A DNA stretch of 39,607 nucleotides, from assembly GCA_020436125.1 (NCBI GenBank), contig JAGQYK010000029.1, forward strand, positions 1 through 39,607, given 5' to 3'. Source of the stretch: Cyclobacteriaceae bacterium. Lineage in GTDB: Bacteria; Bacteroidota; Bacteroidia; Cytophagales; Cyclobacteriaceae. A model generated the notes under the pieces. It had not been told where the DNA came from. It saw only the letters and a list, made by a program, of their open reading frames with translations, and searched no databases. Shown piece after piece: positions 10,627 through 29,065 of the stretch. The number at the start of each line of letters is the position of its first letter. The stretch's first letter is position 1. A program made the position numbers and the translations under genes.

Positions 10627-10654
10627 AAGCCAACTTCATGTTGGCTTTTTTTTT
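10627..10654. terminator. Bidirectional intrinsic terminator between hmuY-like and monooxygenase genes
   Basis: An 8 bp perfect stem (AAGCCAAC / GTTGGCTT) with a 5-base loop is flanked by A6 on the left and T9 on the right, so it can end transcription from both sides. On the minus strand the T/A tract overlaps the TAA stop of the monooxygenase gene. Confidence 0.9.
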
Positions 10655-12221: not shown

Positions 12222-13909
12222 TTAAAAATCTGTATCGAGATCCAGTCGTTGTTTTAATTCTTTTAGAACAGGATTCTTTTCCGTGAGCTTATCAAATTTC
12301 TCTTTGTTGGTATAAGCTATCTTCTGTGCTTGTATTTCGCGAATCTGACTGGTGACATTGATGCTTCTGTTTTTAAGGCGTTCTCTCAAAAATTCAGTAA
12401 GTGGATTGCGAATAGTTTGTAGAAGCGGTTCTTCTACCGGGTTGGTCAGATGAATCGTAATGAGGTTGTTTTCAAAATGAAACTCCTGTTTAAGGAGATG
12501 GTATTCACCCACTTGTGTTTTTCTTTGTTCAGTAAATTCATTCCACGCGAGTTTTAGCGACTCCAGCGTAACAGGTTGATCATTAGCAATGGCCGTGTCA
12601 TTGACTTCGGTATCTACTTTTGGTACTTCTTCAGATTCTTTGTTCTTGCCATTGGCAAGATCAGCAAGACTGGGCGTTAGTTTTTGCCTGCCACTTGATT
12701 TTATTTTTGAAATTGTAGGCTGAGGATTAGCAGTAGGCTGTGTTACTTCTTGAACTGGGTTAGGTGAGGGAGCAACTGGTTCCTCGACAGTTGTTTCCGG
12801 GCTTACTTCACTTTTTTTTTTACTGCTTCTTCTGAAGGCGCCCCATTGGGTTTCACAACAGCATTCACATGCGCCATTTTCATCAGCGCCAACTCCACAA
12901 GAAGGCGTTGATTCTTGCTGGCTTTGTAGCTCAGATCACATTGATTGGCAATGCTCAGCCACGATAGTAGAAGAGAAGGGGATGCAGCTCCGGCTTGCTG
13001 CAGATATTTTTTCTTGGTTGCATCTGGAACCTCCATCAGATCGATGGTTCGCGCATCTTGGGAAACCAGTAGGTTTCTAATGTGCTCGCTGAATCCTCCA
13101 ATGAAATTGTGACCATCAAACCCTTTTCTCAATATTTCATCCAGCAGTAGCAATGGCTGACTCATGTTCTCTGCCAGCAAGCTATCTACCACTTGGAAGT
13201 AATAGTCATAGTCAAGAATATGAAGGTTGCTTAGTACATCCTTGAAGGTCACTTCCTTTCCTGACGAAAAAGTCACCATCAAATCAAAAATGGATAAGGC
13301 ATCACGCAAGGCGCCATCTGCCTTTTGTGCGATAAGATGCAGTGCTTCATCCTCTACAGCTATTTTCTCCCGATCGGCAATCTTTTTTAGCTGCCTGCTG
13401 ATGTCGGATACCTGTATTCTGTTGAAATCAAATATCTGACAACGGGAAAGTATAGTAGGGATGACTTTATGCTTCTCTGTAGTAGCAAGAATGAATATGG
13501 CATAAGGTGGTGGCTCCTCCAATGTTTTCAAAAAAGCATTGAATGCTGAATTGGAAAGCATGTGAACCTCGTCTATGATATAGACTTTATATTTTCCGAA
13601 TTGAGGCGGGTACCTTACTTGATCGATCAGATTGCGGATATCTTCTACCGAATTGTTAGAAGCAGCATCTAATTCGAAAATATTGAGTGAATTGACTTCT
13701 GCCTTCTCTTCAAAACCATTGATCATACGGGCTACAATACGAGCACATGTAGTTTTTCCGATTCCTCTTGGACCACAAAAGAGAAGGGCCTGGGCAAGTT
13801 TATTGTTATCTATCGCATTTTTGAGCGTGGTGGTAATGTGCTCCTGGCCTACAACCTCATCAAAACCGAGCGGGCGATACTTTCTGGCCGATACAACAAA
13901 ATTATCCAT
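12222..13909 (-). CDS. dnaX: DNA polymerase III tau subunit, full length by -1 frameshift
   Basis: Full-length DnaX (about 562 residues) is obtained only if the reading frame moves by -1 at the A10 run at 12812-12821. After the shift the frame reads SEVSPETTVEEPVAPSP, a Pro/Glu/Thr-rich linker, then the conserved C-terminal block LKLAWNEFTEQRKTQVGEYHL, and ends LKELKQRLDLDTDF. This block is the Bacteroidota tau tail, which binds polymerase and helicase. With no stop codon in the -1 frame from the A-run to 12222, about 195 codons remain open and recognisable, so this is functional coding sequence and not decay. One added A (or two lost) in the mRNA would have the same effect as ribosomal slipping. 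Sequencing error in the homopolymer is the dull alternative. Confidence 0.85.
12803..13909 (-). CDS. dnaX: DNA polymerase III gamma-like short form (zero-frame dnaX product)
   Basis: The zero frame gives 368 residues: the clamp-loader AAA+ ATPase. Walker A is GPRGIGKT at 46-53, Walker B/DExx is VYIIDEVHML at 109-118, sensor 1 is LATTEKHK at 141-148, and the SRC motif is SRCQIF at 155-160. A domain III helical collar follows. It ends AVKKKVK then TAA, two codons past the A-run. This matches the size of a gamma subunit without the tau-specific domains. The Cys4 zinc module normally found after the ...ARI..K.INC segment is absent: residues 62-78 read MINGFEEKAEVNSLNIF with no cysteine cluster. 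M28-PDZ lies 54 bp upstream on the same strand. Confidence 0.9.
   Translation of the reverse strand: MDNFVVSARKYRPLGFDEVVGQEHITTTLKNAIDNNKLAQALLFCGPRGIGKTTCARIVARMINGFEEKAEVNSLNIFELDAASNNSVEDIRNLIDQVRYPPQFGKYKVYIIDEVHMLSNSAFNAFLKTLEEPPPYAIFILATTEKHKVIPTILSRCQIFDFNRIQVSDISRQLKKIADREKIAVEDEALHLIAQKADGALRDALSIFDLMVTFSSGKEVTFKDVLSNLHILDYDYYFQVVDSLLAENMSQPLLLLDEILRKGFDGHNFIGGFSEHIRNLLVSQDARTIDLMEVPDATKKKYLQQAGAASPSLLLSWLSIANQCDLSYKASKNQRLLVELALMKMAHVNAVVKPNGAPSEEAVKKKVK
12812..12821 (-). other. Slippery A10 run (frameshift or transcript slippage site) in dnaX
   Basis: On the coding strand: GTA AAA AAA AAA GTG AAG TAA, with ten A in a row. It contains A AAA AAA heptamers suited to -1 tandem slipping and is long enough for RNA polymerase slippage (Thermus dnaX uses A9). 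A 6 bp stem-loop (CAACTG/CAGTTG, bases 12788-12793 with 12773-12778) begins 18 nt after the run; whether it stimulates slipping is unknown. Confidence 0.75.
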
Positions 13910-26245: not shown

Positions 26246-27121
26246 ATGATCCCCTTTTATTCACTATTTATTCAGATGATTTACGGATGGGATGTAATCC
26301 TCCTTGGGTTATTATTTCTGTTCTTTGTTTCACTCGGCTCTTACGGGTTGGGGATGAATATTCGCGATAAGCGTAAAAAAGCACTTGAAAATTTAGTAAG
26401 AATAAGGACAGTTGAATTAGAAAAAGCCAACGAAGAACTCAAATTGCGAAATTCCGAACTCGATCGTTTTGTCTATAGTGCCTCGCATGACTTAAGTTCT
26501 CCTTTAAAATCAATCTTAGGATTAATCAATGTAGCCAAATTAGAAAACCCAGGAGATGATCAGCTGAAGTACTTAAGCATGATGCAAAAAAGTGTGGATA
26601 AATTGGAATCCTTTATTGAGGAAGTGATTCAGTATTCGCGTAATGCAAGACTTCCTATAAAGTATGAGTCACATCACTTTAAAAATTTTACTGCCGACAT
26701 TCTTCAAGGCTATCAATACATCACCAATTACGAGAAAATATCTTTTGAGATAGAAGACGATACAGGCGAGCCCATTATCACAGATGGGATGCGTTTAAGG
26801 ATTGTTCTTAATAATCTTATTTCTAACGCGATTAAATTTCATAGAATAAATGAGGACGTAAAACCAGTAATTAGAATTAATCGATCGATTGTGTCTAATC
26901 GTAATGTGATATCGGTACAAGATAATGGAAGAGGAATTCAATCTGAATACACGGAAAGGGTCTTTGAAATGTTTTTCCGTGGTACGGAGGAAATACCTGG
27001 ATCAGGGTTAGGTCTTTATATTTTGAAAGAAACAGTCAATCGATTGGATGGAGCAGTTACAGTTGAATCCAAGGTAGGCAAGGGCACTACGTTCATAATA
27101 TCCCTACCTATGGTTGAATGA
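26246..27121 (+). CDS. Membrane sensor histidine kinase without sensory domain
   Basis: A 291-residue kinase. The start is ATG 26246 rather than TTG 26240. One or two N-terminal membrane segments (about 14-36) are followed by a short coiled coil (residues 40-73, VELEKANEELKLRNSEL). The H-box is FVYSASHDLSSPLKSILG with phospho-His H81; the N-box is LNNLISNAIKFH, G1 is VQDNGRGI, the F-box is MFFRG, and G2 is GSGLGLYIL. There is no PAS, GAF or periplasmic sensor, so it may sense the membrane itself or work with a partner. The bacteriophytochrome-type kinases of Bacteroidota share the 'LDRFVYSASHDL' text. It lies alone; no response regulator is adjacent. The last 14 bases overlap the convergent helicase. 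Confidence 0.88.
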   Translation: MIPFYSLFIQMIYGWDVILLGLLFLFFVSLGSYGLGMNIRDKRKKALENLVRIRTVELEKANEELKLRNSELDRFVYSASHDLSSPLKSILGLINVAKLENPGDDQLKYLSMMQKSVDKLESFIEEVIQYSRNARLPIKYESHHFKNFTADILQGYQYITNYEKISFEIEDDTGEPIITDGMRLRIVLNNLISNAIKFHRINEDVKPVIRINRSIVSNRNVISVQDNGRGIQSEYTERVFEMFFRGTEEIPGSGLGLYILKETVNRLDGAVTVESKVGKGTTFIISLPMVE

Positions 27122-29027
27122 GTTCGAATGCGCTTTGGTAATAGTTTTTTCCTTGAACGTACTCCACCAGTTCATTGTAAAAGGAATTAGAATACAAAGT
27201 GCTGCTGTCTCCAATTATAATTACTTTTTTTTTGGCTCTGGTGATCGCCACATTAGTTCTTCGTATGTCATTTAGAAAGCCAATTTCACCACTCTCATTT
27301 GACCTTACCAGGCTAATGGCAATAACATCTCTTTCCTGTCCTTGAAAAGCATCCACAGTATTAATGGAAATGAGTGAAGCAATTTCATTGAGTTGAGGAG
27401 AGTCCTCAGCCAGATTTAATAAAGTGGCTACTTGTGCACTGTATGGTGTAATAATCCCAACAGTGTAGCCAGCATGTATCCATTCTTGCAGTCCTGTGTG
27501 GTCAACCAACTGTTCTAGTGCATTGATAAGTAATCTGGCTTCGTCTTTGTTGTATTTACTTAACGTTTCAGGATCTAATGTTTCATGATATCCGCAGCCT
27601 GCTGTATCAATAAAATTCATGGGTTGTTGATCAGACAATCGATGGTTCTTTATTGTGGAGTTTGCGATTAATTGATTTTTATAAAAATATTTTGAAGGAA
27701 ATGCCATAATGTCTTCATGCATTCTATATTGCACCTGAAGCATGCTGGCTGCTTCCGGATGTCTTTTAATACATTTTTCAAAAAGCGTTTCTGCCAACCC
27801 ATTGTTGGCTGCTTCTCGTGATTTAATGGTGGGAGGAAGTTGAAAGTGGTCACCAGCAAAAATGACACGTTCTGCCCTGCAGATAGGAATCCAACAAGCT
27901 GGTTCCAAAGCTTGCGCAGCTTCATCAATAAATACCGTTTTGTATTTCTTTCCTCTCAGGGTGGGGTGAGAGGCGCCTACAAGCGTGCACGTGATTACAT
28001 CACTTTTCTGAAGGATATCGTTGATGATGTAGAATTCCAACACGTCAGCATCTGCTTTCATAGCGTTGGCCTCTTGTCGCAGAAATCGTCTTTCTTCTTT
28101 CTCTTTGTATCCAAAATTGCGTTTGAATTTGGAAGCCTGATTACGCAGTTGTTCCATTTTCTTTCGCATCATCCTGAGTTCTTTGAAGTTGGGATGAGCT
28201 GCAATTTGTGCATCGAGGGTTTTGCTTAATGTCTGTTCTGTTACGCGAGCAGGGTGTCCAATTCGAACAACGTTAAGTCCAAATTCGCTTAATTTTTCTA
28301 CCAATAAATCTATAGACGCGTTGCTCGGTGTACATACCAATACCTGTTGTTCTGATTTTACCGTTTGTGCAATAGCCTGCACCAACGTTGTTGTTTTGCC
28401 TGTGCCAGGAGGGCCGTGTATGATACCCACTTCATTACACGAGGTTATGTGTTGAAGTGCTTTTTGTTGACTCTCGTTAAGGTGATCAGGGTAGTCAAAG
28501 GTCAGTTGTTCACGACTGGAGGTGGGAGACTTACCAAGAAGGATGTCTCTGAGTTCTGCTAGCCTCGAGTTTTCTGCCTTCATTACTTTCTTCATGGCCA
28601 GCTCCATTTCCCGATAACTCATCTCATCAAACATCACATCTATACCCAACAGACCGTGGTCGACCCAGTCGGGAAGGTCATCTGAGTTGAGGGTGATGAT
28701 CATTTGATTATCGCGGACGTAATTGATGACTCCACCGACATGATCCCGCTCTGGCTTTTGATGCGCATTACTAAAAACGCTTACCATCTTTCCACTTTGG
28801 AAGACATGTTTTTGTTCTAACTCGGTCGTTCGTTCCACCTCTATTATAAGACGTTCACCAGTACCGATATAATCCTTCTTCAGTTTTACAGGGTACCAGC
28901 AGATTCCCTCTTTGGTCTTTCTGTGCAGAGGAGTGAGCAGTACCTTTTGGCGATATTGTTCAAGGTCAGCCGCTCGTTCCAGGCGGATAAGGTCTAAGGT
29001 GTGTGAAAGTTCTTCTTGAATGTTCAT
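27108..29027 (-). CDS. UPF1/IGHMBP2-like superfamily 1B helicase
   Basis: A helicase of about 639 residues of the SMUBP-2/IGHMBP2 type. The start is ATG 29027; the longer frame to 29063 would begin upstream of a TAACTTTG box at 29037-29044. Motif I is HGPPGTGKTTTLVQA (about 201-215), motif Ia is VLVCTPSNASIDLLVEKL, motif II is VFIDEAAQALEPACW, motif III is IFAGDHFQLPPT, motif IV is LQVQYRMHEDIMAFPS, motif V is NTVDAFQGQERDVIAIS and motif VI is RRTNVAITRAKKKVIIIGD. An N-terminal 1B-type beta-barrel lies at about 30-140. Relatives unwind DNA or RNA 5' to 3'; the bacterial role is unclear. It is divergent from the FtsX permease. Confidence 0.92.
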   Translation of the reverse strand: MNIQEELSHTLDLIRLERAADLEQYRQKVLLTPLHRKTKEGICWYPVKLKKDYIGTGERLIIEVERTTELEQKHVFQSGKMVSVFSNAHQKPERDHVGGVINYVRDNQMIITLNSDDLPDWVDHGLLGIDVMFDEMSYREMELAMKKVMKAENSRLAELRDILLGKSPTSSREQLTFDYPDHLNESQQKALQHITSCNEVGIIHGPPGTGKTTTLVQAIAQTVKSEQQVLVCTPSNASIDLLVEKLSEFGLNVVRIGHPARVTEQTLSKTLDAQIAAHPNFKELRMMRKKMEQLRNQASKFKRNFGYKEKEERRFLRQEANAMKADADVLEFYIINDILQKSDVITCTLVGASHPTLRGKKYKTVFIDEAAQALEPACWIPICRAERVIFAGDHFQLPPTIKSREAANNGLAETLFEKCIKRHPEAASMLQVQYRMHEDIMAFPSKYFYKNQLIANSTIKNHRLSDQQPMNFIDTAGCGYHETLDPETLSKYNKDEARLLINALEQLVDHTGLQEWIHAGYTVGIITPYSAQVATLLNLAEDSPQLNEIASLISINTVDAFQGQERDVIAISLVRSNESGEIGFLNDIRRTNVAITRAKKKVIIIGDSSTLYSNSFYNELVEYVQGKNYYQSAFELIQP

Positions 29028-29036
29028 TTGTGGCGA

Positions 29037-29044
29037 CAAAGTTA
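29037..29044 (-). promoter_or_regulatory. Candidate -7 element of the UPF1-like helicase gene
   Basis: TAACTTTG on the minus strand exactly matches TAnnTTTG and lies only 9 bp before ATG 29027, implying a very short leader. No clear -33 box is seen. Confidence 0.3.
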
Positions 29045-29065
29045 AATGATAGAACCTTCCCACTG

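Follow-up and report, generated by a model that had tools for sequence, protein, structure and literature searches.

The dnaX gene of this Cyclobacteriaceae bacterium encodes a gamma-sized protein in its zero frame, which ends just past a run of ten A's, and carries the remainder of tau in the -1 frame. The frame break at the A10 is real, a sequencing error being very unlikely. Judged from sequence, the gene is probably one of programmed transcriptional slippage, in which transcripts with an altered number of A's would give access to tau. The main added evidence comes from a survey of the phylum, which indicates that in Bacteroidota conservation lies with the A-run cassette rather than with the reading frame.

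The window, by which we mean the whole 39,607-nt stretch of DNA analysed, contains the locus summarized in Table 1. The coordinates and frames agree with the preliminary description, which had reported a zero frame ending two codons past the A10 with a gamma-sized product: the residues VKKK span the run and are followed by VK and the stop. It had also placed an intact tau part of about 195 codons in the -1 frame, where we find 196 codons matching the C-terminal part of NCBIfam model NF011531. The frames support its view that a slip is needed for tau, a layout opposite to that of Escherichia coli and Thermus thermophilus dnaX, and the A run is likewise supported as the likely control point of the tau/gamma ratio. 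Since runs of at least ten A's are rare, occurring at 14 distinct places across the 4.2 Mb assembly and within the window at dnaX only, the presence of this one is more than chance.

Table 1. Features of the dnaX locus, in window coordinates.
Feature	Position	Strand	Remarks
dnaX zero frame, gamma-type product	12803..13909	minus	start at 13909; 368 aa; AAA+ clamp-loader ATPase, lid, domain III; C-terminus VKKKVK*
Zero-frame stop TAA of dnaX	12803-12805	minus	
A10 slippage run in dnaX (putative)	12812..12821	minus	
TGA closing the dnaX +1 frame	12808..12810	minus	one codon past the A10
Tau-specific linker and C-terminal domain, -1 frame	12222..12812	minus	open for 196 codons after the A10; stop 12222-12224

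The assignment of the two parts to dnaX was supported by profile searches. The zero-frame product matches Pfam DNA_pol3_delta2 and DNAX_ATPase_lid and scores 379.9 bits against NCBIfam TIGR02397, a model of the dnaX N-terminal part with a cut-off of 250. The two parts cover different stretches of NF011531, a model of 614 positions: the zero frame matches 1-367, and the -1 tail matches 437-613 (E 1.8e-20, 73.3 bits); each half alone, being only part of the protein, scores under the whole-protein cut-off of 685 bits. Among 18 gamma-first genes of the same genus, the window's included, differences in the tail per codon position of the -1 frame were 0.467, 0.338 and 0.663 over 171 of 236 alignment columns, a pattern indicating that the tail is protein-coding. 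It evolves fast: pairwise comparison of the same genes gave 14904 nonsynonymous codon differences as against 6606 synonymous ones. AlphaFold predicts a confident domain at about residues 80-196 of the tail (pLDDT of at least 90 at 103 of 196 residues), and the predicted structure has weak fold matches to DnaA domain I, DciA and an E. coli Pol III complex chain. A second full dnaX was not found in the genome's own assembly (216 contigs, 92% complete).

To compare the run among close relatives, we used 24 genomes of the same genus. A strong dnaX match was present in 21, of which 20 could be classified, the remaining gene (L023) starting at a contig edge. The gene is gamma-first with tau in the -1 frame in 18 of the 20, with A10 in 16 and A11 in 2, and a break so widely shared makes a private sequencing error very unlikely. 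The other two, L006 (A9) and L009 (A8 following an uncalled base), encode tau in the zero frame, and their other two frames stop 0 and 3 codons past the run. Because both retain the cassette, the frame can evidently switch while the cassette stays. The preliminary description had counted an unbroken frame in relatives against recoding. Such frames do exist, in these 2 of 20 genes and in 89 of 264 genes of the wider set described below; yet 78 of the 89 retain at least nine A's, and in 65 of these 78 both other frames stop within 7 codons. Retention of run and stops suggests that the unbroken frames indicate programmed slippage and do not refute it.

The wider survey combined relatives and an order draw (whose match list was excluded from counts) with 80 named contigs, with draws from the phylum and the class, and with 100 selected regions. 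From 282 loci, six unclassified ones (L002, a paralogue, and L023, L086, L249, L250 and L253) were set aside, leaving 276. Removal of four genes at contig edges (L082, L171, L205, L251), two that lacked a tail (L211 and, where a contig ends, L071) and six duplicates left 264. A gene was classed as gamma-first if a tail of at least 80 codons continued in another frame, and in tau-first genes the run was sought within gene nucleotides 1020-1400. The 264 dereplicated Bacteroidota genes, a non-random and related set whose counts are not independent events, comprise 175 gamma-first and 89 tau-first genes, numbers that give no prevalence since 57 of the 100 chosen regions were picked for a short zero frame. 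Two draws are less biased, although they overlap and include only genomes at least 90% complete. In the class draw, a gamma-sized zero frame with a verified tail was present in 38 of 147 matched genomes, out of 149 searched; its four other short rows consisted of two contig edges, one fragment and L211. The phylum draw gave 44 of 146 matched genomes, out of 148 searched, with one additional short row not counted among the 44. Gamma-first genes occur in named isolates of Algoriphagus, Belliella, Roseivirga, Fulvivirga and Pseudochryseolinea, and tau-first isolates that retain the run in Dyadobacter and Sphingobacterium.

The junction run measures 9-12 A in 252 of the 264 genes (A9 in 23, A10 in 213, A11 in 15 and A12 in 1), and a run of at least nine A's was present in 17 of 20 tau-first genes sampled one per family. 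Among the 252, the run starts at every codon position (140, 90 and 22 genes), and tau lies in the zero frame in 78, in the -1 frame in 170 and in the +1 frame in 4. The last four (L146, L190, L191 and L200; runs of 10-12 A) would require another product of slippage, and assembly errors may be among them. Within 7 codons of the run, 225 of the 252 genes have a stop in each of the two non-tau frames, whereas other positions along the same tails predict 42.2 of 249. The excess holds for the +1 frame by itself: a stop closes it within that distance in 65 of 78 tau-first genes, where 30.9 would be expected, and in 157 of 170 gamma-first genes, where the expectation is 77.3. With the four +1 genes left out, the frequency of +1 stops exceeded its own control in 56 of 66 family labels, which are group codes and NCBI names that partly overlap.

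To count changes of the tau frame, a FastTree gene tree was built from the N-terminal part of dnaX of the 252 genes, with the run excluded. The fewest changes on this tree were 35, falling to 31, 21 and 19 when branches with support below 80, 90 and 95 were collapsed, and both layouts were found within each of four single genera (g1, g135, g159 and g164). We lean towards the reading that dnaX in Bacteroidota is frame-blind, with the A-run cassette and not the reading frame as the conserved unit. Slippage would be so frequent that the 0 frame, the -1 frame or, now and then, the +1 frame can carry tau; lineages would have switched some 20 times or more with the run retained, and replication coupling in much of the phylum would hang on RNA polymerase slipping at one site.

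In the mechanism that we consider likely for the window's gene, RNA polymerase would slip on the template run and produce a mixed mRNA pool differing in the number of A's. The unchanged A10 message would give gamma; a message with one extra A would be translated in the tau frame past the run, so that the linker and C-terminal domain are added to gamma; and a message in the third frame would meet an immediate stop and also yield a gamma-sized protein. The spectrum of slippage would then set the tau:gamma ratio, and the annotated zero frame would mean little. The feature that marks programmed transcriptional slippage, a run of at least nine A's with early stops in the other frames, is present here, and the orthologues add runs of 9-12 A, closed other frames and tau in the 0, -1 or +1 frame. 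What the sequences show directly is the frames, the run and its conservation, the stops and the recurrent changes of frame; that the slip takes place in RNA synthesis rather than on the ribosome, how efficient it would be, and that both products are made and used are inferred.

The strongest alternative, though an unlikely one, is -1 ribosomal frameshifting on A_AAA_AAA heptamers with the E. coli roles reversed, such that standard decoding would give gamma and the shift tau. The frame distribution fits a single -1 step, as tau lies in the 0 or -1 frame in 248 of 252 genes; this counts against transcription, since free slippage would permit +1 tau more often unless insertion of a single A dominates. 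The four +1 genes are in turn hard to reconcile with a ribosomal shift, and a -1 shift never enters the +1 frame, so that stops there would be superfluous. Shine-Dalgarno (SD)-like sequence upstream of the run clearly exceeds that of other gene windows (mean -4.60 versus -1.78, 110 genes) and remains mildly stronger than under synonymous recoding (mean rank 0.389 versus 0.5), with an SD core in 18% of the 252 genes. In the window's gene no stable hairpin was found past the run: shuffled sequences fold better than the 60 nt that follow it (z 0.75) and better than 90 nt (z 1.51). No general post-run hairpin emerged among 110 genes drawn at random from the 252 (mean z -0.43, 9% below -2), although the post-run window was among the most stable tenth of its own tail in 20% of the 110, double the expectation. 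The run is also longer, at 9-12 A, than a ribosomal heptamer requires. Lysine codons in the first 340 codons of the survey genes are 35% AAG, and the genes' own codon usage predicts an all-AAA run in 0.357 of cases on average. One lysine run in 253 holds AAG, that of L081, the sole gene among the 12 run-less ones with at least three lysine codons there, so that the comparison, the other 252 having been selected by their run, turns on this single exception. L081 is the only gamma-first gene lacking a run of at least nine A's and has instead A7-G, the A_AAA_AAG heptamer of E. coli dnaX, as a ribosomal shift would use; its coverage is 3.8-fold, and the A7-G may be an error. A reversed candidate with E. 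coli-like signals is on record for Chlorobium phaeobacteroides (PMC5009743). Weighing the longer run, the scarcity of AAG, the +1 stops and the lack of a general hairpin against the SD-like sequence and the frame bias, we favour slippage in transcription over a ribosomal shift, and the ribosome may play a part.

We regard variation at the DNA level or an assembly error, by which the gene would truly be one frame or the population mixed, and the break an artefact of the homopolymer, as very improbable. The break is common to 18 of 20 genus genes and to named isolates, 175 of 264 genes of the non-random set are gamma-first, and stops in both other frames exceed expectation. The assembly of 216 contigs does contain other long A runs. 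On contig C111 at about 219889, an A15 between the two domains of coaBC (L322) breaks the gene into two frames; both pieces match TIGR00521, and the gene is one open frame in all 14 relatives with a match (16 searched), so the split is an artefact of assembly or else a change private to this genome. Further runs of A10-A17 lie on contigs C18, C23, C31 and C162, at contig ends, and on C122, C147 and C216. As some long runs sit at contig ends, the longest of the assembly may be artefacts. An A16 occurs in frame inside a 591-codon ORF (L323).

Least probable of all is that tau has been lost, with the organism living on gamma alone and the -1 tail a relic, as the gamma-only zero frame might suggest: the tail shows coding-type divergence, a dnaX model match and a confidently predicted fold, and in all 175 gamma-first genes, by definition of the class, the tail continues in another frame for 80 codons or more. 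L211 comes from a reduced genome of 0.5 Mb; its dnaX has 353 codons, no tail in its other frames reaches 80 codons, and it perhaps makes gamma only.

The preliminary description had taken this layout to be the reverse of the known cases, a claim that the literature does not support in general: gamma-first recoded dnaX is already known in kind, having been predicted in print in 2013. A passage of Antonov et al. 2013 (PMC3711429) lists 17 dnaX genes from 12 genera in which recoding is needed for tau, nine of them with ten A's, with Chloroherpeton and two Chlorobium species of the same GeneTack cluster among those with fewer. The authors proposed transcriptional realignment for these genes, and the relevant passages describe no test of dnaX recoding. 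Those genes have, like ours, two ORFs, a -1 change for tau and A10, with no difference in kind visible; the window's gene is of their type, as its zero frame ends after a poly-A run, tau lies in the -1 frame and the arrangement is conserved across species. Tau likewise seems to be the frameshift product in many fewer bacteria, according to a passage of Atkins et al. 2016 (PMC5009743). Other systems share single features. E. coli dnaX also yields two products from one gene in the -1 direction; its ribosomal slip site is a heptamer (PMC5009743, in the part dealing with dnaX), A_AAA_AAG with upstream SD and hairpin, and the shift gives gamma, whereas here the run is longer, no hairpin was found and the shift would give tau. 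In T. thermophilus, where slippage at the A9 of dnaX is published (in passages of PMC5009743, PMC3711429 and PMC1088944), slippage is transcriptional and the zero frame encodes tau, in contrast to gamma here. Shigella flexneri mxiE, described together with Thermus dnaX in part of Baranov et al. 2005 (PMC1088944), gains its longer product through slippage, as proposed here, but is an unrelated gene for a transcription activator. No later paper on gamma-first or slippage dnaX in Bacteroidota was found among the matches listed from the openly licensed literature. The layout is apparently commoner than published so far, and as far as our searches show, the phylum-wide extent and the repeated switching of the frame are new.

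If this interpretation is correct, the coupling subunit of the replisome would be made in many Bacteroidota only through slippage at one homopolymer, and gamma-sized dnaX annotations in the phylum can omit the tau half. In E. coli, what gamma does was resolved only after considerable controversy, as a passage of PMC5009743 recounts; if tau has repeatedly changed frame while the run persisted, this would strongly indicate selection for making both tau and gamma.

Several other features were observed. First, a helicase-like ORF of the AAA_11/AAA_12 type (27108-29063, minus) contains an in-frame A9 on its coding strand close to the 3' end, at 27225-27233. Second, a short inverted repeat followed by T9 at 10629-10654 resembles an intrinsic terminator. 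Lastly, the window's DnaX ATPase domain (12803-13909) is without the four-cysteine zinc module; among 258 genes in which the segment was found, it holds no cysteine in 107 and four in 151, with no intermediates, a distribution that looks like repeated loss of the module.
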